Of a stretch of 64,000 nucleotides of DNA, positions 18,379 to 27,185 are shown piece after piece. Origin of the DNA: an uncultured Chitinophaga sp. (lineage in GTDB: Bacteria; Bacteroidota; Bacteroidia; Cytophagales; Cyclobacteriaceae); NCBI GenBank assembly GCA_902168205.1, contig CABHOK010000003.1, forward strand, positions 930,001-994,000, written 5' to 3'. Both the position numbers and the translations under genes were made by a program. Under the pieces are notes generated by a model. That model saw only the letters and a list, made by a program, of their open reading frames with translations, did no database searches and was not told where the DNA came from. Every line of letters begins with the position of its first letter. The stretch's first letter is position 1.

Positions 18379-18412
18379 GCAGTTCACAGCTAAAAACTCA
18401 CAGCTATTGCAG
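18379..18412. repeat. Degenerate CAGCT repeat at the operon end
   Basis: CAGTTCACAGCTAAAAACTC followed by ACAGCTATTGCAG carries ACAGCT words like the AGCTC family. It overlaps the last codons of the beta-barrel gene (stop at 18404-18406), so the end of that reading frame seems to be built from repeat sequence. The similarity to the arginine-operon copies is weaker than among those copies. Confidence 0.35.
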
Positions 18413-19027
18413 CGGAGTCTTAAACCCAACCTGTAAACTCACACCATTCAAATTCCCATCATATACCTGCGTAGTGATTGGGAAACTCAGGAATTGGGAT
18501 TCGAAGTAGAGAATGAAGAACCTGTTGATTTTATAGTCGATGCCGACACCGGTGCGAAACGAAAGCGCAGATCGCGATCGGGACGTTAAGCTTATATTGC
18601 CAGATGAAGAAGTCTCTTCCAGAAAAGGTATATCGGTAATCGCTATACCCGCTCCGGCATATGCATACGGTGAGAATTTCTTGATGCGGAAGCTATACCC
18701 CATATCCAGGCCGATCAGCGTACTGGGTATCTTTCCTTTGATGGAAAGGCTGGAGCCATCCCGGGCCGTGTAGTCGGTGAGAAAAGCTATGTTGTACTGA
18801 TCGAGATATAGTCGTGAGAAGAAATGCTTTTTGTAGTCGACCTGGAATTGGAAGCTGCTGGCAAAACCGGTTTCACTAAGCGCACCGTGTGTTGATGTGG
18901 GGATATAGAGTCCTATTCCTCCGTTGAAATAGTATAGCAGCTTGCGCGCCTGGTTAAGGGTATCTACTTGTGCCTTTACAGGTATTGCGAACAGAAGCAG
19001 CAGACTACAGGTTGTTAATTTTAGCAT
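18404..19027 (-). CDS. Outer-membrane beta-barrel protein
   Basis: The product has 207 residues with a signal peptide (MLKLTTCSLLLLFAIPVKAQ). GGIGLYIPTS, DMGYSFRIKKFSPYAYAGAG and GVGIDYKINRF are typical alternating strands of OmpW/OmpA-type or porin-like small barrels (DUF-type outer membrane beta-barrel). It is the last gene of the efflux operon, seven bases after the HMA-like gene. Its role with the pump is unknown. Confidence 0.75.
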   Translation of the reverse strand: MLKLTTCSLLLLFAIPVKAQVDTLNQARKLLYYFNGGIGLYIPTSTHGALSETGFASSFQFQVDYKKHFFSRLYLDQYNIAFLTDYTARDGSSLSIKGKIPSTLIGLDMGYSFRIKKFSPYAYAGAGIAITDIPFLEETSSSGNISLTSRSRSALSFRTGVGIDYKINRFFILYFESQFLSFPITTQVYDGNLNGVSLQVGFKTPLQ

Positions 19028-19034
19028 GGATATT

Positions 19035-19244
19035 TTATTTCAGAGTTTCACAAGTAAAGCCGTGGTTATACAGAATGTCCTGGATAGAGGCTGTAATGTC
19101 TTTCTCAGTCAGCACCCGTAGCACTTTATCTTCATCGCCTATATCTACAGACCAGTTATTTCTGCCTGTAATTTTTGTCAGGTCGGCTGCAATGTGTTCA
19201 ACATCATGGCTACAGGCCAGATCGGTTTTAAAAAGGAGAATCAT
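19035..19244 (-). CDS. Small HMA-like ferredoxin-fold protein without CxxC
   Basis: The product has 69 residues with a beta-alpha-beta-beta-alpha-beta pattern: ILLFKTDL, a helix DVEHIAADLTKI, NWSVDI, KVLRVLTE, helix ITASIQDILYNHG, FTCETL. This resembles heavy-metal-associated domains, but the metal loop reads DLACSHD with one cysteine instead of CxxC. I recall similar CxxC-less HMA-like proteins in Bacteroidota. It lies between the TolC-like gene and the beta-barrel gene in the efflux operon; metal or redox sensing is only a guess. Confidence 0.7.
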   Translation of the reverse strand: MILLFKTDLACSHDVEHIAADLTKITGRNNWSVDIGDEDKVLRVLTEKDITASIQDILYNHGFTCETLK

Positions 19245-19266: not shown

Positions 19267-20619
19267 TTAAAGACCTGTAAGGTGTTCCAATTCAGCAATT
19301 GTCAGCAGGTATGATAACTGTGCAGCGTAGAAGTCTGCTTCCGATTTTGCTGCGGCAGCCTCTACTTCAAGCAAAGCACTTTTGATATTCAGACCTGCAC
19401 CTTGTTTGTCCCGCTGTACTTTTAGCTCCTCGTGTCGATATCGCATGGCTTTGCGTGCAACTTCCATTAGCGCTTTGGTTTGATTTACCTTGCGATGTGT
19501 TTTATCTATATCTGCACGAAGCTGCTGCTGCTGGTATAAAACCTTGTGCTCGGCTTGCTTTAGCTGTGCTTCACGTTGCCTCAATACCTGGTGGTTGGTA
19601 AAAAGATCCTGCAGATTCCATCGCAGGTTTATACCTATATATGGACTCGATGTTGGTAGTATGGGATTCCCTTTTTGATAGTAGTATCCCGCCACCAGAC
19701 CTATATCAGGCAGATTACTTCGCTTTGCTGCTTTTATGCCCAGAAGTGCTTTCTCTTGATCGATTCGCGCGATCCGTAAATCAGTGTTTGCTGTTTTAGC
19801 ATTCTGGAAAGTCTCTTCTACAGGTGTGGTTTCGATATGTGCAGTTGTTGTATCAAGTGGCTGCAGGCTTATGTCGGTATCATGCTGGATATTGGTAATA
19901 TCGGACAGTTCGTGATTATAGTCCTGTAGAGCAATGTCGAGTTTTAGAATGTTTTGTTCTTCTTCCGCAACCAGTGCCCGGAGTCCCGCCAGGTTGGAGG
20001 ATATTGTTTTCCCTGCGGTAAGTGCGCTCTCTGCATCTGTTAGTTTAACCTGCGCAAGTTCAAGGCGTACAACCGCTTCCTCGCGCTGCTTCCGGGTAAT
20101 CAATATACCATAGTATAATTTCCGTACAGCGAGTTTTAGTTCGCGTACCATTTTTACTTTCTCTTTTTCAGAGCGTGCTATATCGGCCCTATCAATGTCC
20201 AGACCGGTTTTAGTCCTGGCCTGTTGCAGCAACGGCTGGTATAGTGCTATATCGGCACCATAGTTTGCGTGTTGTCCTAATTGCATTTGCTGATTCTCGG
20301 CCGGAAGCAATCGATCACCGTTAAGTGTCGGTACCGAACCAATAGCACCGGCCGGTATATTGAGATCACCGAGTGAAAAATTATACTGGTAATTCGCACC
20401 GAGTATAACCGATGGATAGCGTTTGGTTTCGTCCTCTTTAAGTTTACTTATCTTTTCCTGAAGCTGCCATTCTTTTATAGACACCAGATTGTTTTTGGCG
20501 ACAGCCGAATCAATAAGTTGCTGCAGTGTATAGGGTGCATTGTTCTGTGCCCGCAGCGAAACGCAGGAGACAAGAAGGATGCCTGCAAGCAGTATATTAC
20601 GCTTGATGTATGAATTCAT
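19267..20619 (-). CDS. TolC family outer-membrane efflux channel
   Basis: The product has 450 residues with a signal peptide (MNSYIKRNILLAGILLVSCV...). The two long coiled-coil repeats of TolC proteins are visible: TLQQLIDSAVAKNNLVSIKE at the N-terminus, RELKLAVRKLYYGIL, and the second half with IGINLRWNLQDLF and a Gln-rich helical segment. It gives the outer-membrane duct for the RND pump encoded 20 bases upstream. It carries many Lys and Gln in the helices, as usual. Confidence 0.9.
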   Translation of the reverse strand: MNSYIKRNILLAGILLVSCVSLRAQNNAPYTLQQLIDSAVAKNNLVSIKEWQLQEKISKLKEDETKRYPSVILGANYQYNFSLGDLNIPAGAIGSVPTLNGDRLLPAENQQMQLGQHANYGADIALYQPLLQQARTKTGLDIDRADIARSEKEKVKMVRELKLAVRKLYYGILITRKQREEAVVRLELAQVKLTDAESALTAGKTISSNLAGLRALVAEEEQNILKLDIALQDYNHELSDITNIQHDTDISLQPLDTTTAHIETTPVEETFQNAKTANTDLRIARIDQEKALLGIKAAKRSNLPDIGLVAGYYYQKGNPILPTSSPYIGINLRWNLQDLFTNHQVLRQREAQLKQAEHKVLYQQQQLRADIDKTHRKVNQTKALMEVARKAMRYRHEELKVQRDKQGAGLNIKSALLEVEAAAAKSEADFYAAQLSYLLTIAELEHLTGL

Positions 20620-20639: not shown

Positions 20640-23600
20640 TCAGGATTGTATTCTATCTTGTGGGCGGATCATCGCTATATATAGGACTGGAACGGTGAGT
20701 AATGCCGTGATCATGCTCCACACCACACCGAAGGCAAGCACACTCGCAAGCGGTGCCCACATACCTGAACCGGAAATGATCATAGGGAGAACACCGATCG
20801 CTGCTGCCATAGCTGCAAGAAATATAGGCCGAAGTCTTCGTTTGGCTGCTTCGATCGAAGCTGTCTTGATGTCCATTCCCTGTCTCAGGAGTATATTGGT
20901 ATAGTCAACCAGTATAATAGCATTTCGTACTACGATTCCGGAGAGTGCGATCAGTCCAATGAAAGCTGTGAAACTGAAATTGTTGCCCGTTACGACCAGT
21001 CCCAGGATAGCACCAAATAAACTGAGTGGTATCGTTAACATGATAATGATCGTTTCTTTTATGTTTCTGAATTGAAACAGCAGTATCAGGAAGATCAATA
21101 CAAGGCTTATCAGGAGTGCTGTAACCATCTCTGCAAATACCTCTTCCTTATTTGCTTCTTCACCACCATACTCAATCCGATAGCCTGCCGGTAAATGAAT
21201 CTTTTCGATTTTCGGTTTTATAGCTTCGAGAAGTTCTGCCGGTAATATGCCCGTTTGTATTTCGCTTTGCACAGTAAGTGCACGTACACCGTTACGATGC
21301 ATGATTTTACCTGATTGCCATTGTGGTGTAAGCGTAGCGATTTGTCTCAGTGGTAATTCAGCACCTGTAGCGGGAGAGGTGAGATATATATTCTGAAGGT
21401 CGGTGGTGCTTTGTCGTTTGTTCGCATCGAGGCGAAGTACTATATCTACAGGTGTGCTGCCTTCATAGAGTGTTGATATAGGCGCTCCGTTGAATCCGGT
21501 AAATACCGATTGTGCTATACTGGTGGTAGTGAAGCCCAGGCGTTTAGCTTCTTCGTTCAGTTGAAGACCGATACCATAATGGTCTTCGGAAAAATCATCG
21601 CGTACAAAGAGACTACCCGGAGTCTGTTTAAGAATTTTGTGAACTTCATTTCGAATTTGCTTGAGTCGCGTAATATCATCGCCGACTATCCGTACTTCAA
21701 CGGGTGCCTGGAGCGATGATCCTTGCTGCATCAACTTTACAAAGAATCTGCCATCGGCTGCAATCTTCCTGACCTTCGTAGTAAGTTCTTCCGCTAATTC
21801 TTCTGACGTTGCTTCGGATGTAGTGTTTACCAGTATGAGTGCATAATTAGTGGTAGGAAACTCCGGTGAAAAGTTATAGTAGAAACGAGGTGCAGATGTT
21901 CCGGTAAAGGTAGCATACGAGGTAACGCGTGCATCACCTTTTAGCAAATGTTCAGCTTTCAGAATTGTCTCATTTGTCTTTTCGAGTTTAGTACCCGTTG
22001 GCATCCATAACTCTATAACAAACTGGTTGCGTTCAGCCGGAGGAAAAAATAATTCGCGAACACCAAACTTGAACAGCAAGGCTACAAGCAGGAGGGAAGC
22101 GAAACTTCCGATCACTGTAGTTTTAGGATTTCGTATACACCAGTCTAATGTGGTGTTATATCCATCTTGCATATAGGTTAGTACAGACTTTTTCGGTTTC
22201 GTTCCGGGGGCAGAATGTATCGCGGGCGTTGTGTGATCGTGCTGATGCAGTCCTTTTTTAATAAAGGTATAGCAAAGTAGCGGTGTCAGGAATAACGCAA
22301 CGAAGTAAGAGGCTATAAGCGCAATCGCTACGGTAACGGGCAGTGTTGCTATAAATTCACCCGTAGAACCACTGATCAGGATCATCGGCATAAACGATGC
22401 TATAATGGTAATTGTAGCGGCCAGCACCGGTATAATCAGATCGTGCGCACTTCGCCATGCGGCTGTCCAGCGATCTACTTTTTCATCGAGTAACTCTACA
22501 TAATTATCAGCAATAACAATCGCATCATCCACCACCATGCCCAGTACAAGTATCAATGCCGCTAATGATACCTGGTGCAGTTCTATACCGAGTAAGTTCA
22601 TCATGGCGAATGTAAGGGCGACAGTCATCGGTATTGCCATGGCTGCTACGGATGCAATACGAAAGGGCAACAGCAGGATTACCACAACAATAACAGACGC
22701 TATAGCGAGGAAAAACTCTTTGATGAAATGCGATATATTCTGATCGACCAATGTTGGTTGTGATATGAGTGTAGTGATGTTTATACTACCCGGAATAATG
22801 GTTCGTGCATCCTTGATTCTAGCCTCTACAGCCTTTCCGAATTCGACAATATTATTTCCTTCACGCATCTGGATGCACAGCATAATAGCTTTGTTACCAT
22901 TGCTGGTAAGGATGCTTTCAGGTTCGGTATAGCCACGCTTCAACGTAGCAACATCGCCTAATCGCACAAGTGCTCCTGAAGGTGAAGCTCCTACAATCTG
23001 GCTGGACAGATCCTGTTCGGTGTGAAAGTACCCTTCTGTGTAGAGTGGTGTTTTCTGTGTTTCTGTTTTCACTTCTCCTGTAGCACGAATACTGTTTTGA
23101 GACTGCAGCAGTTGTACAACCTGGTCGAGCTTTAGACCATACTGTGATAATCTTTCTGAATTGGATGAAACTACAATCTGCTGGCGCTGGTCGCCAATGC
23201 GTTTTATTTTTGATGCGGCTGGTATTGTGCGAATCATATCTTCAACTTTCTGCGCATAGCCCTTCAGTTGTTCGTAGGTTGCATATTTACTGTCCAATGC
23301 AATTACCATTGCTTCAGTATCACCAAAGTCAGAGTCTACGATCGGACCGTTTACGCCTGCGGGTAAATCGAGTTCGCGTGCAAGGAGAAGCTGGTGTCTT
23401 AGTTTACTCCAGAATACATCCGGATGTTTTACATCCTGGCTTAATTCAACCGTAATCACTACCATGCCGTCCTTTGATGCCGCGGTAGTTTTGGTCTTGT
23501 CTACTTCTTCGTATTGAAAAAGATATTGCTCCAGTTTTTTGGTGACCTGGTCTTCCACCTGCGTAGCGTTCGCTCCGGGAAAATAGGCAATCACGAGTCC

Positions 23601-23732
23601 TTGCCGGATGGTGATTTTTGGATCTTCGCGCCTGGGCATATTCAAAAGCGAGTTAACACCCACGGCAAATAACATGAGTAGTACGGCCAGCGTTACCTGC
23701 TTGTATTTAAGTGCTGCTTCAATAAAATTCAT
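20640..23732 (-). CDS. RND efflux pump, HAE1-type inner-membrane permease
   Basis: The product has 1030 residues, normal for AcrB/MexB-like transporters with 12 membrane helices and two large periplasmic loops. The helix-4 acid pair is present in LGMVVDDAIVIADN. The helix-10 position that is lysine in AcrB reads VVRNAIILVDY, so arginine replaces the relay lysine, a variation I know from other HAE1 branches. It exports hydrophobic compounds by proton antiport; the substrate is not evident. It lies six bases after the adaptor gene and before the TolC-like gene. Confidence 0.93.
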   Translation of the reverse strand: MNFIEAALKYKQVTLAVLLMLFAVGVNSLLNMPRREDPKITIRQGLVIAYFPGANATQVEDQVTKKLEQYLFQYEEVDKTKTTAASKDGMVVITVELSQDVKHPDVFWSKLRHQLLLARELDLPAGVNGPIVDSDFGDTEAMVIALDSKYATYEQLKGYAQKVEDMIRTIPAASKIKRIGDQRQQIVVSSNSERLSQYGLKLDQVVQLLQSQNSIRATGEVKTETQKTPLYTEGYFHTEQDLSSQIVGASPSGALVRLGDVATLKRGYTEPESILTSNGNKAIMLCIQMREGNNIVEFGKAVEARIKDARTIIPGSINITTLISQPTLVDQNISHFIKEFFLAIASVIVVVILLLPFRIASVAAMAIPMTVALTFAMMNLLGIELHQVSLAALILVLGMVVDDAIVIADNYVELLDEKVDRWTAAWRSAHDLIIPVLAATITIIASFMPMILISGSTGEFIATLPVTVAIALIASYFVALFLTPLLCYTFIKKGLHQHDHTTPAIHSAPGTKPKKSVLTYMQDGYNTTLDWCIRNPKTTVIGSFASLLLVALLFKFGVRELFFPPAERNQFVIELWMPTGTKLEKTNETILKAEHLLKGDARVTSYATFTGTSAPRFYYNFSPEFPTTNYALILVNTTSEATSEELAEELTTKVRKIAADGRFFVKLMQQGSSLQAPVEVRIVGDDITRLKQIRNEVHKILKQTPGSLFVRDDFSEDHYGIGLQLNEEAKRLGFTTTSIAQSVFTGFNGAPISTLYEGSTPVDIVLRLDANKRQSTTDLQNIYLTSPATGAELPLRQIATLTPQWQSGKIMHRNGVRALTVQSEIQTGILPAELLEAIKPKIEKIHLPAGYRIEYGGEEANKEEVFAEMVTALLISLVLIFLILLFQFRNIKETIIIMLTIPLSLFGAILGLVVTGNNFSFTAFIGLIALSGIVVRNAIILVDYTNILLRQGMDIKTASIEAAKRRLRPIFLAAMAAAIGVLPMIISGSGMWAPLASVLAFGVVWSMITALLTVPVLYIAMIRPQDRIQS

Positions 23733-23738
23733 GACTTA

Positions 23739-24767
23739 TTATTTTACGACTGTGATATTTACACCATCGGAGAGTTTTGACTGACCAGCCGTTACAATTA
23801 CTTCACCTGCCGACAAGCCCGCGATAATCTGTAGTTTATTATCGATCATGCTACCCAGACTTACCTTGCGTCTGAATGTTTTGTGCGTGGCTTCATCCAC
23901 AACATATATATAGCTTTGATTGTCTACATCATGAATGACAGACTCTGCCGGAACCAGTATACCCATACTATCTGAGTTACCGTTGAGTTGTACTTCAGCA
24001 ATCATTCCCGGGCGTATAAGCATGTCGTTGTTCGCGATCTCCGCTTTTATTGTAAAGGCGCGCGATGTAGCATCTGCAATAGCACCAACCTCAGTAATCT
24101 TGCCGGTAAATTTCTTATTTAATGCGGCAATGCTGATCGCTGCCTGTTGCCCAATGGTAACATGGTGTAATTCTCCTTCCGGTATAAATGCTGTGACAAT
24201 AACATGTTGTATATCTGCGATTACAAACAAGGGTGTACCGGCTGCAATAATCTCGCCTGCTTCTGCCTGCTTGCTCAACAGTATACCGGTTAATGGTGCA
24301 TGGAGCTTTGTGTCGGTCAGGTTTTTATTCTCCAGCTTTTGCTGAAGTTTAGCCTGCTGTAGTGAAAAGGATGCTTTCGTGTGATCGCTCTCACTCAGGC
24401 TGCCTCGTTTATATAACTGGTCTAAGCGGTTGAATTCATCCTGGGCGACATTTGCCTGCACATCAGAAAGCTGCTTGGCAATAGTATAGTTAGTAGGTTC
24501 CAGGTTTGCGAGTAATTGATCTTTTGTTACCTGTGAACCTTCTTTTACGGCTATATATTCAATTTTACCCGGTACCATAAAACCGAGTTTTACGGTAGTT
24601 TTTCCTTCGATGCTTCCACTTAAAATGATTACGTTCGGAACTGTTTGTGCTGTTACCTTCTGCACTTCTACAGCCGTGGCGCTGTCTGCGTCAGCGTGGA
24701 TTTGTTCGTGATTGCCTGTGCAGGCTGTGAATAGCACGAGCACGGCGAGAATAGAGTTGTATTTCAT
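23739..24767 (-). CDS. RND efflux periplasmic adaptor lipoprotein
   Basis: The product has 342 residues of the HlyD/AcrA membrane-fusion family. MKYNSILAVLVLFTAC gives a lipobox with C16, so the protein should be lipid anchored. The lipoyl-like half domain GKIEYIAVKEGSQVTKDQLL is followed by a coiled-coil hairpin (residues about 95-145), the second lipoyl half (APLTGILLSKQAEAGEII), and the beta-barrel and membrane-proximal domains. It bridges pump and channel. It is the second gene of the operon, 47 bases after the FNR-like gene. Confidence 0.92.
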   Translation of the reverse strand: MKYNSILAVLVLFTACTGNHEQIHADADSATAVEVQKVTAQTVPNVIILSGSIEGKTTVKLGFMVPGKIEYIAVKEGSQVTKDQLLANLEPTNYTIAKQLSDVQANVAQDEFNRLDQLYKRGSLSESDHTKASFSLQQAKLQQKLENKNLTDTKLHAPLTGILLSKQAEAGEIIAAGTPLFVIADIQHVIVTAFIPEGELHHVTIGQQAAISIAALNKKFTGKITEVGAIADATSRAFTIKAEIANNDMLIRPGMIAEVQLNGNSDSMGILVPAESVIHDVDNQSYIYVVDEATHKTFRRKVSLGSMIDNKLQIIAGLSAGEVIVTAGQSKLSDGVNITVVK

Positions 24768-24814: not shown

Positions 24815-25219
24815 CTACAGGTCGGTAAAGAACTGCTCATGAACAGTAACTGTGTTGATACCCAGGAACTGTAAAACTGTTTTGACTTGTTCAATAAATT
24901 CAGTTTGTCCTGATACGATAAAGCTCGTCTCCGGAATGATGTTCGTGTTAATAATGGCTTCTATCGTTCTTTGACAGGATATATTATTACCAGACATGGC
25001 CTCGGATTCGTACGATATATATAGCTTTCCGGGAAAATACCGTTCGAGTATGTTCAGCTCTTTTGTAAATGCAAAGTGATCGTTGACGGATTGGTATAGT
25101 ATGGTTATTGCCGTTGAAGACGTTTCGGTAAGTTCGTGCTTTAATTCAGGGAAAACAGAAGCCATGCCTGCTTCGTCAGCTATATATACCAGGTGTTTGT
25201 TGAACGTTTTGTCTTGCAT
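24815..25219 (-). CDS. Free-standing FNR-type NAD-binding domain protein
   Basis: The product has 134 residues from the ATG at 25219. It matches the NAD(P)-binding half of ferredoxin-NADP reductase-type flavoenzymes: HLVYIADEAGMAS (first strand and loop), TILYQSVNDHFAFTKELNIL, ERYFPGKLYISY, and the C-terminal SFIVSGQTEFIEQVKTVLQF plus HEQFF. The FAD-binding domain is missing, and the glycine-rich loop reads ADEAGMAS instead of AGGxGxxP, so normal NAD binding is doubtful. The ATG at 25219 is preferred to a TTG at 25243 because that codon overlaps the predicted -7 element. First gene of the efflux operon. Confidence 0.65.
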   Translation of the reverse strand: MQDKTFNKHLVYIADEAGMASVFPELKHELTETSSTAITILYQSVNDHFAFTKELNILERYFPGKLYISYESEAMSGNNISCQRTIEAIINTNIIPETSFIVSGQTEFIEQVKTVLQFLGINTVTVHEQFFTDL

Positions 25220-25240: not shown

Positions 25241-25287
25241 CAAAGGAAGCTATAAGACATAGTATATTTTTTAAGATATATTAAAAA
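25241..25287 (-). promoter_or_regulatory. Promoter of the efflux operon with 21-bp box
   Basis: Read on the minus strand: a 21-bp AT-rich near-palindrome (25287-25267; plus strand T6 AAGATATATT A5), an 18-bp spacer, then TTCCTTTG followed by C (25248-25241), one base off TAnnTTTG. Transcription would begin near 25234, 15 nt before the ATG. The identical box with the identical 18-bp spacer precedes the cyclase gene at 26556-26602. The box takes the place of a -33 element and is centred near -43, as expected for an activator of Crp/Fnr class II type. Confidence 0.6.
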
Positions 25288-25432
25288 CGAATGGGTATAA
25301 GGTAAATTTGTTAATCATGTATGGTAACTTCGTAAAAACAAATTGGTGCCTTGTATCGAATATACCGGCAATATGATTTGAGAAGCTACTGTTAAATGGC
25401 CGTAAAGTATAGTTGGCTATAGGTATGAAAAC

Positions 25433-26527
25433 CTAGTGTATTGAAGGTGTTGTTATTTCGTAGATAGCGGTTTCGGAAGCTTTACCGCGAAAGGTAAGCT
25501 GTGTGGCGAATGAGGCAGTAAATCGGTCAGCTTCCTGGAGCCAGTTCGCTACGGGTGATGATACCAGTAAATTTTTCTTCAGCGTGTTACATTGCTCCAG
25601 CATCCGCGCACAGGTATTCAGTACATCTCCGTGATAAACGATGTCTCGTTTTATAGTACGTATTTCGGTAACGGTAACAAGCCCGGTATGTACTGCAGCT
25701 TTAAAGCGAGGCGTTTCTCCAAATGATTTTGTAAAGTAGTCGCTTTGCTGATCGATTTTTTTGATAAAGTCAAAATATAGCTTGAGCGGTGCGAGTGTCT
25801 TCTGGGCAGTTCGCGCAGGCCAAAGCAGTACGGCTTCATCACCTACAAACTGGTAAAGAATTGCATCGTGCTGATGTATACTTTCGGTTAGTAGTTGAAA
25901 GCTGCTTTCTATAAAACGACTATATTGTGCATGTCCTAATTGTTCGGCAATGCGAGTGGATGCCTGCAGATCGATGAACAAAAACGTAAGATCTTCTTCT
26001 ACCGGCTGACTATATTTACCGAGAAGAGCACCTACAATAGCTTGCGGCCCCAGGTAGTCATAGATCGTTTTGATCATGTTTAGTAAAATACTGAAGAGTA
26101 TAAGGTAGAGGAACACCGAAAGGAATATCTCGGTTTGCAGAAACTCGGGTATTGACTGCAACGATGCATGCAGAGATTTATTCTCAAAAACCTGTGCAAA
26201 GAATATAAAAACGAGAATACAACCGGTCGTTATCAACAAGATAATGATGCTGTATTTATACAGTATAAATCTTCCGAAAGGATAGTTTTCCCAGCGATTA
26301 AATATATACACCTCCATGAATGCTATACCCAGTGCCACGAGCAGGGCCATGCACGATGAGAGTGGGAGCAGAGCCTGTTGAGTTTGGAGATTGATCTCGT
26401 TCAATTCTTTTAGCCCGAGCATTTTCAGCAGGACAAAAATGTTCATTCCGGCTACGTAAGCGATGACCAATACAATGAGGTAAGGTCGGTTAACTTTCCG
26501 CGCGTAGTTATTTATGGCCGCTTTCAT
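25433..26527 (-). CDS. Membrane-anchored class III adenylate/guanylate cyclase
   Basis: The product has 364 residues. Four hydrophobic segments (about 14-36, 53-75, 90-111, 133-152) precede a class III cyclase catalytic domain from about residue 175. The two metal-binding aspartates fit D186 (FLFIDLQAST) and D230 (YQFVGDEAVLLW). VHTGLVTVTEI matches the conserved GI-x-G-x-V region in altered form. Such proteins make cAMP or cGMP at the membrane. It lies between the efflux operon and a Crp/Fnr regulator gene on the same strand and shares its promoter box with the efflux operon. Whether the nearby regulator binds a cyclic nucleotide is not shown. Confidence 0.85.
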   Translation of the reverse strand: MKAAINNYARKVNRPYLIVLVIAYVAGMNIFVLLKMLGLKELNEINLQTQQALLPLSSCMALLVALGIAFMEVYIFNRWENYPFGRFILYKYSIIILLITTGCILVFIFFAQVFENKSLHASLQSIPEFLQTEIFLSVFLYLILFSILLNMIKTIYDYLGPQAIVGALLGKYSQPVEEDLTFLFIDLQASTRIAEQLGHAQYSRFIESSFQLLTESIHQHDAILYQFVGDEAVLLWPARTAQKTLAPLKLYFDFIKKIDQQSDYFTKSFGETPRFKAAVHTGLVTVTEIRTIKRDIVYHGDVLNTCARMLEQCNTLKKNLLVSSPVANWLQEADRFTASFATQLTFRGKASETAIYEITTPSIH

Positions 26528-26555
26528 GAATTACTTTGTTCTGCCGTTGCAGGTG

Positions 26556-26602
26556 CAAAAGAAGCGAGAAGCGGAGAATACTTTTTTAAGATATATTAAA
26601 AA
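26556..26602 (-). promoter_or_regulatory. Promoter of the cyclase gene with the same 21-bp box
   Basis: The box at 26602-26582 is identical over 21 bases to that at 25287-25267. After an 18-bp spacer comes TTCTTTTG plus C (26563-26556), giving a start near 26549 and a 22-nt leader. The two spacers do not share sequence, so the common spacing and box are unlikely to come from a simple recent duplication. Confidence 0.6.
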
Positions 26603-26624: not shown

Positions 26625-27185
26625 TTACCGTTTGGCCCTGATCACACTAAGCGTTTGCTGGGTTATGCCGAGGTATGAGGCAATATGACCGAGCGGTACG
26701 CGTAGTAATATTTCGGGGTACATTTCCATCATGGAGCTGTAGCGCTGCTCGGCCGTCTGGAATTGAAGAGACTCCAGCTTAATAACAAACATATTCAGCG
26801 TGTCGATGGCAGCCAGAAAAAGCATACGCTGAACCTCGGGTATACGAACGCACATCGCTTCCAGTTCGTGGTATGGAATTACCTTTACGATGGTGTCTTC
26901 CAGAGTTTCCCATCCGTAGGGCTCTTCTTTACCGTAGAAGACACTATTCAGAGGCGTGGTAAACGAGCCTGCATCGAAAAAGAATTGTGTTATGTCACGC
27001 TCATCTTTATAGTAAAACGTACGTATCAATCCTTTTTCGATAAAATATACTTTTGATGACGAACCGCCCGGCTTTATCAGATGTGCGCCCCTGGTATATG
27101 ATTCCGTTTTAAAGGCTGCTACTATTTTGGAACATACTTCGGGATCGAGTTTAATCTTCGAGGTTATATAGGATAGTAGCTCCAT
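26625..27185 (-). CDS. Crp/Fnr family transcriptional regulator
   Basis: The product has 186 residues. Residues about 20-125 form a cyclic-nucleotide-binding-like beta barrel (YTRGAHLIKPGGSSSKVYFI then EKGLIRTFYY), followed by a long dimer helix and a C-terminal helix-turn-helix, VPLGHIASYLGITQQTLSVI. The four-cysteine iron-sulphur motif of FNR is absent (Cys only at about 18 and 112), and the canonical cAMP-contacting RxS motif is not obvious. Such short regulators are abundant in Bacteroidota with mostly unknown ligands. Its stop lies 23 bases before the promoter box of the cyclase gene, making it the first candidate for binding that box. Confidence 0.88.
   Translation of the reverse strand: MELLSYITSKIKLDPEVCSKIVAAFKTESYTRGAHLIKPGGSSSKVYFIEKGLIRTFYYKDERDITQFFFDAGSFTTPLNSVFYGKEEPYGWETLEDTIVKVIPYHELEAMCVRIPEVQRMLFLAAIDTLNMFVIKLESLQFQTAEQRYSSMMEMYPEILLRVPLGHIASYLGITQQTLSVIRAKR

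Follow-up and report, generated by a model that had tools for sequence, protein, structure and literature searches.

The Crp/Fnr-type protein encoded at 26625-27185 on the minus strand of the 64,000-nucleotide stretch of DNA analyzed here (the window) is very probably a class II activator which acts through two identical boxes, one in front of an RND efflux pump operon and the other in front of a gene for a membrane cyclase. That this neighboring protein is the putative binder of the boxes is strongly supported, because a residue of its recognition helix covaries with a base of the operator. The conserved core would be the regulator together with the box, usually accompanied by the pump, with the cyclase as a lineage-specific addition under the shared operator.

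The 21-mer TTTTTTAAGATATATTAAAAA is present without any difference at 25267-25287 (box 1) and 26582-26602 (box 2), precisely where a preliminary description of this DNA had located it. The box was described there as a 21-bp near-palindrome; near-palindromic it is, but the symmetric unit is a 20-mer with one asymmetric pair, TTTTTAAT-ATAT-CTTAAAAA, which spans 25287-25268 in box 1 and 26602-26583 in box 2. The dyad form common to both copies is TTTTTAAK-N4-MTTAAAAA. On the minus strand, each box consists of TTTTTAATATATCTTAAAAA, followed by 23 nt and by TTTG (25244-25241 and 26559-26556, respectively). The complete -7 elements, TTCCTTTG at 25241-25248 and TTCTTTTG at 26556-26563, lie 18 bp from box 1 and box 2, and the spacers in between are unrelated in sequence, as had been reported. 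Crp/Fnr activators of class II, among them E. coli FNR, occupy a position centered at -41.5. In Flavobacterium psychrophilum, the Bacteroidota -7 box TAnnTTTG is located at -12 to -5 (PMC9723704); by this placement the TTTG of both promoters would correspond to -8 to -5 and the dyad to -51 to -32, with a predicted center at -41.5 and predicted starts at about 25236 (box 1) and 26551 (box 2). The earlier assignment to a class II position is thereby retained, while its estimate of a center "near -43" is replaced. At its predicted position the dyad lies where a -33 element would be, and the promoter geometry appears to fit class II activation, with start sites predicted from the -7 consensus only. 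In two relatives the operator region itself is repeated in steps of 58 bp, giving three boxes in Chitinophaga tropicalis (L120 8190-8350) and two in Chitinophaga sp. CF118 (L079 9072-9152), where the usual distance to TTTG is found at the promoter-proximal copy only.

On the minus strand the regulator gene comes first and is followed by box 2, cyclase and box 1; behind box 1 stand the NAD domain, the three RND pump components (adaptor, permease and channel), a 69-aa ORF and a barrel protein. The earlier placing of box 1 over the NAD-domain/RND operon and of box 2 over the cyclase gene is supported, both as putative operators defined by sequence. The regulator (186 aa) carries the cNMP-binding fold (PF00027, 28.7 bits at a cut-off of 27.5); its profile matches 3dn7 over positions 3-185 (E 1.8e-17), and its C-terminal helix-turn-helix is alignable to Crp/Fnr proteins. 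Pfam reported no separate helix-turn-helix match, and the AlphaFold model (pLDDT 42) was unusable. By the alignment made here, its helix GITQQTLSVIR has Gln at the place of FNR Glu-209 and Val at that of Arg-213. The gene under box 2 (25433-26527) encodes a membrane-anchored class III cyclase of 364 aa (Pfam Guanylate_cyc, 28.0 bits, cut-off 21.9). The first gene under box 1 (24815-25219) encodes a stand-alone NAD-binding domain of the FNR-reductase type (134 aa), whose start is probably the ATG at 25219 and not the listed TTG at 25243, as the latter lies upstream of the predicted transcription start. This domain had no Pfam match and a weak match to PaaE in NCBIfam, under the cut-off of that family, and a PDB sequence search with its profile gave nothing useful; its AlphaFold model (pLDDT 78) has its best PDB matches in the ferredoxin-NADP reductase family (top 2rc5, E 3.6e-5). 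In several species, such an NAD-binding half of an FNR-type reductase, lacking the flavin domain, stands first in the operon of an RND pump. It is followed, still on the minus strand, by the RND periplasmic adaptor (23739-24767; TIGR01730, above cut-off), the RND permease of 1030 aa (20640-23732; ACR_tran, 613 bits), a TolC-type outer membrane channel (19267-20619; OEP, 108.5 bits) and a conserved 69-aa ORF (19035-19244), which had no NCBIfam match and resembles, by eye, 70-aa ORFs at the CF118 and C. tropicalis loci L079 and L120. An outer membrane beta-barrel protein found by Pfam search (18404-19027), conserved at loci L077 and L120, ends the cluster.

The box is rare. At up to three mismatches the 21-mer had no match in 100 dinucleotide-preserving shuffles of the window, and in the genome to which the window belongs (7,299,025 bases, 20 contigs) the two sites were the sole matches, apart from one reading of each on the opposite strand; the reversed pattern gave one forward and one reverse match as a control. 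The box combined with its spacing, TTTTTAAKNNNNMTTAAAAA-N23-TTTG, had exactly two exact matches in this genome, which are the two boxes. Both remaining matches had two mismatches, one being box 1 on the other strand and the other being devoid of TTTG, and upstream of the regulator gene itself this search revealed no exact or one-mismatch site, a result that gives no sign of autoregulation and is counted against the activator reading. Rfam gave nothing at gathering thresholds. With two copies in the whole genome, both before -7 elements, a general repeat that is common apart from promoters is ruled out. Among relatives, the bare 21-mer amounts to background (80 of 98 genomes matched at up to three mismatches, with a reversed control of the same order by eye), and therefore box and spacing were used together as the pattern. 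At up to two mismatches, 60 genomes were scanned, namely 12 carriers of the regulator and 48 genomes not known to carry it, a set in part of which the Gln-Val regulator was tested for and which includes ten Chitinophaga picked for being without the NAD domain. Exact matches numbered 11 in eight of the 12 carriers and zero in the 48 others, and one-mismatch sites numbered 14 in the carriers (six genomes) versus four in the others. Counting all matches on both strands, the carriers had 52 versus 13 for the reversed control and the 48 others 87 versus 93, so that the two-mismatch pattern has to be regarded as background. Since the carriers were mostly found via their clusters, it is the lack of exact sites in the 48 others that carries information. 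Ten of the 11 exact sites fall into the regulator loci described here; the remaining one (G506) is located just past the pump and barrel genes of its cluster, ahead of a gene whose 142-aa product begins with a signal-like stretch. All exact occurrences of TTTTTAAT-N4-ATTAAAAA in CF118 and in C. tropicalis are confined to these loci, at three places each.

In both Ohtaekwangia and Chitinophaga, box and spacing are conserved near orthologues of these genes, whether a cyclase is present or not. Ohtaekwangia koreensis possesses the whole cluster (85% identity for Crp/Fnr, 80% for the cyclase, 48% for the NAD domain and 88% for the permease), and both of its boxes read TTTTTTAATATATATTAAAAA at the spacing seen in the window, which indicates that the two promoters changed in concert relative to the window. 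Chitinophaga sp. CF118 has, at L079, the Crp/Fnr gene, a cyclase split over two reading frames and the NAD domain, then short ORFs; its promoter-proximal boxes are TTTTTAAT-CCAG-ATTAAAAA and TTTTTAAT-CTGG-ATTAAAAA, and the same two cores occur in the boxes of C. tropicalis. At one C. tropicalis locus, the cyclase lies between two boxes; upstream, just the 3' end of a Crp/Fnr gene is left, and neither an NAD domain nor a pump follows the cyclase. A second locus (L120) has no cyclase: its Crp/Fnr gene is followed by three boxes at 58-bp intervals, of which one is exact and two carry a single mismatch, and then by NAD domain, adaptor, permease (81% identity), channel, 70-aa ORF and barrel. A further Crp/Fnr gene of C. 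tropicalis (L212) is accompanied by a box, adaptor and permease. In the cyclase promoters of these two Chitinophaga, TTCG stands in place of TTTG, which we count against the activator reading. The NAD-domain profile matched nine of 79 Chitinophaga genomes at E <=1e-8, including CF118 and C. tropicalis (G488 and G489). Four others (G505, G506, G511, G559) have the order Crp/Fnr-box-NAD domain-adaptor-permease with no cyclase among these genes, two (G550, G566) have Crp/Fnr-box-NAD domain without an adjoining pump, and G504 has a longer reductase-like protein and no Crp/Fnr match within the stretch examined. A genome of the same family, G602, shows Crp/Fnr-box-adaptor-permease-channel without the NAD domain. 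Four of the 12 carriers have cyclase and box, and in the eight that have no cyclase beside the regulator none was found genome-wide at E 1e-70 in the six searched (G602 and G588 left out). Cyclase orthologues were detected in one of 395 genomes of the class sample at E 1e-75, which is the window's own, and in two of 79 Chitinophaga genomes at E 1e-70. Across the loci, the box thus follows the regulator, and the presence of cyclase, NAD domain and pump differs from one locus to the next.

The permease shares 81% identity with its counterpart in C. tropicalis, a species of another order, and orthologues of regulator and NAD domain occur in only two of seven genomes of the genus; this suggests that the cluster may have spread by horizontal transfer. 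In Chitinophaga the cluster also shows decay: in CF118 (L079 8001-9079) the cyclase frame is split and the pump genes are gone from the locus, in C. tropicalis (L078 7800-7930) the regulator is reduced to its 3' end, and in both cases the boxes persist. Six further loci (L072, L080, L081, L082, L085, L076) contain more distantly related membrane cyclases of this group, a few kb at most from RND permease genes but in other arrangements; of these loci, L072 belongs to the window's own genome and has another Crp/Fnr gene.

The most direct link between regulator and box comes from the comparison of recognition helices with neighboring operators. From the fetched loci, 99 Crp/Fnr proteins with a readable helix were used (two of 101 were unreadable and dropped); 40 of the loci were taken in order from further down a list, with one entry (G654) skipped. 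A neutral scan downstream of the genes, which required 7-bp arms with at least six of seven pairs, a 4-bp spacer and TTTG at a given gap and left base 3 of the half-site free, found a dyad at the window's gap for 36 of the 99 genes, whereas any one of 30 other gaps gave between 0 and 4. In these 36 dyads, base 3 is G after Glu at the Glu-209 place (20/20) and A after Gln (13/13). Broken down by the residues at the Glu-209 and Arg-213 places, it is G for Glu-Arg (20/20; 68 examined) and A for Gln-Val (10/10; 13 examined), while the rarer pairs give A for Gln-Asn (2/2), Gln-Arg (1/1; two examined) and Val-Arg (2/2; four examined) and G for Ser-Arg (1/1). The 63 genes without a dyad at this gap, among them 48 of the 68 Glu-Arg and three of the 13 Gln-Val genes, are counted against the activator reading, as is one Gln-Val regulator (L156) with a 22-nt gap and an imperfect dyad. 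No dyad followed any of the five Glu-Lys proteins or the single Lys-Arg, Pro-Arg, Arg-Arg and Val-Lys proteins. The same division appears if spacing is ignored: TTGA-N6-TCAA was found near 57 of 73 Glu, one of 15 Gln-Val/Asn and none of 11 other genes, and TTAA-N6-TTAA near 3/73, 13/15 and 0/11, respectively. An earlier scan with fixed T-rich arms and base 3 free had similarly yielded 13 G after Glu-Arg and 13 A after Gln-Val or Gln-Asn with no exceptions, with 26 loci at the window's gap versus at most two at any other.

Three of the loci had been fetched by a match to the A-type box pattern (L210, L211, L212) and one via a G-type site in the same search (L219); without these four, the counts are G 19/19 for Glu-Arg, A 10/10 for Gln-Val, A 1/1 for Gln-Arg, A 2/2 for Val-Arg and G 1/1 for Ser-Arg, and both Gln-Asn rows drop out. 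The majority of the Gln-Val loci had come to light by way of the NAD domain or the cyclase rather than a box. The helix GITQQTLSVIR is common to the ten regulators aligned. On a tree that took in all kept columns, helix included, Gln-Val forms one group of 13 rows with a single change (support 90/84) and Gln-Asn another; because Gln-Val is a single group, the sites are not independent and represent few independent changes. Other combinations were encountered as well. A Gln-Arg Crp/Fnr gene of the window's own genome (L130; G000:C4:107531-107974) is followed by TTACC-N4-GGTAA, spaced from TTTG as in the window, and so provides another regulator-operator pair that can be read. Where Val or Ser replaces Glu-209 (L245, L248, L124, L211), dyads of the types TTAGC, TTATC and TTGTC occur at this spacing, and a gene with Pro at this place has an ATAAC dyad nearby without TTTG at the window's gap.

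The activator model would then read as follows. A homodimer of the Crp/Fnr protein would bind TTTTTAAT-N4-ATTAAAAA, centered at -41.5 and replacing a -33 element, and would owe its reading of TTAAT, in place of the TTGAT half-site of FNR, to Gln at the Glu-209 place, together with Val at the Arg-213 place. In the bound state it would activate the operon for the NAD domain, RND adaptor, permease, channel, 69-aa protein and barrel, and the cyclase gene as well. That the neighboring gene encodes the regulator had been proposed before and is supported by the joint occurrence of regulator and box and by the covariation. The same protein might also be a repressor, which would cover the -33 region and hold both pump and cyclase silent until it is released by a signal. 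The dyad does overlap the -33 region, where repressors can act, and geometry alone carries no sign. We nevertheless consider repression improbable and infer activation, given that the box stands in place of a -33 element and that 36 of 99 Crp loci keep the spacing to the base, which is typical of contact between activator and polymerase and not required of a repressor.

Clearly less probable still is a reading of the boxes by another DNA-binding protein than the neighbor. It would account for the identity of the central 4 bp, orientation aside, between the two promoters within each of four genomes, which exceeds what the plain N4 of a Crp/Fnr site needs, and the window's own genome contains 18 further Crp/Fnr-like matches. 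However, those of its other Crp/Fnr helices that could be read have no Val at the Arg-213 position, and the regulator is the steadiest neighbor of the box (as a relic at one C. tropicalis locus), whereas cyclase, NAD domain and pump vary. Near-palindromic boxes on both sides of the cyclase might finally bring to mind a repeat, terminator or recombination element flanking this gene without regulatory meaning, but we hardly give this credence in view of the constant spacing to the -7 elements with unrelated spacers and of the same site at loci without a cyclase. An invertible or recombination element, in particular, was rejected: the asymmetric cores have the same orientation in the window and opposite orientations in the two Chitinophaga, their relative orientation thus varying between species.

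With regard to the signal, the preliminary description had combined cyclase, regulator and pump into one circuit driven by cAMP or cGMP. Such a feedback, in which the product of the cyclase would serve as ligand for the Crp/Fnr protein and thereby raise expression of cyclase and pump, would be compatible with the activator model. The operator shared in four genomes, the cNMP-binding fold of the regulator and the related cyclases near RND genes at other loci speak for it; on balance, it appears possible but rather unlikely. The phosphate-contact motif GEL...RSA of E. coli CRP (sequence matched to the PDB) is absent in all ten regulators aligned, so that the cAMP/cGMP circuit is not supported in the form proposed. 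A cyclase lies beside the regulator in only four of 12 carriers, and the C. tropicalis pump cluster has the box without a cyclase alongside. The cyclase itself retains both metal-binding Asp residues and the NT.AR motif. At the two positions which determine purine specificity, it has Gln (shared with eight aligned relatives) and Val, and thus neither adenylate-type nor guanylate-type residues, so that its product cannot be predicted. It might even be speculated, with low probability, that the membrane cyclase, its purine pocket being unusual, produces a non-standard cyclic nucleotide, sensed by a Crp/Fnr protein without the cAMP contacts of CRP, and that positive feedback on the cyclase and induction of the RND pump headed by the stand-alone NAD-binding domain form a self-contained signaling cassette. 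The N-terminal four-cysteine motif of the FNR type is likewise absent, the window's regulator having two scattered cysteines and the alignment no conserved set; the regulator may respond to a redox or NAD(H) input just as well as to a cyclic nucleotide.

The pair of promoters becomes a testable regulator-operator pair and provides a lead on the control of an RND pump in Cytophagales and Chitinophagales. As 36 of the 99 Bacteroidota Crp/Fnr genes examined directly precede an operator whose position is fixed to the base, this operator can be read beside its regulator, and the specificities of a large and little-studied set of regulators could be predicted from the neighboring operator; a wider residue-to-operator code seems to be readable in Bacteroidota. 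The rule for base 3, Glu with G and Gln or Val with A, agrees with what is published on CprK (PMC2610375) and on HcpR2 and NssR (PMC1274295), where a residue-base correlation is described for the latter two. The literature matches listed, among which subscription papers are thinly covered and which are thus weak evidence of novelty, contained neither a Crp/Fnr-cyclase-RND circuit nor a -41.5 Crp/Fnr architecture in Bacteroidetes, nor a description of this regulator subfamily with its pump operon. The circuit had been put forward as undescribed, and this agrees with the matches; yet the operator type is already known from CprK and NssR, and the novelty is smaller than suggested.

A close parallel is CprK of Desulfitobacterium, which has Val-192 at the Glu-209 place and recognizes TTAAT-N4-ATTAA, the (de)halobox (PMC2610375). 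Similarly, the present system combines a Crp/Fnr protein with a substituted Glu-209 equivalent (T/A for C/G), this operator type and an associated gene cluster, for which activation is proposed here; the TTAAT half-site with its 4-bp spacer is exact in O. koreensis, CF118 and C. tropicalis, and one arm is TTAAG in the window. In contrast to CprK, which binds a chlorophenol, the regulator has Gln at this place and Val at the Arg-213 place and is associated with Bacteroidota -7 promoters and an RND pump operon, a likeness and difference drawn from the published description of CprK. NssR of Campylobacter has Gln at the CRP-181 place, corresponding to FNR Glu-209 by alignment, and the site TTAACnnnnGTTAA (PMC1274295). 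It shares the Gln and the A in position 3, while its half-site TTAAC ends with C instead of T and it regulates a globin gene. The residue-base pair of the window fits the rules published for both proteins. E. coli FNR, for which contacts by Glu-209, Ser-212 and Arg-213 are published (box TTGATNNNNATCAA; PMC4505428), has the same 5-4-5 dyad geometry but G in position 3, Glu-209/Arg-213 and an iron-sulfur cluster. FNR-type TTGAT-N4-ATCAA is not matched by the boxes, which are of the form TTAAT/TTAAG-N4 with A in position 3. Close counterparts are also the TTGAT-box Crp/Fnr pairs of Chitinophagaceae and of a genus-mate of the window (L155, L172, L173, L174, L219), in which the operator likewise directly follows the regulator gene and occupies the same base position before TTTG, and which differ from the window in a Glu-Arg helix, a TTGAT half-site and other neighboring genes (checked at L218 and L219).
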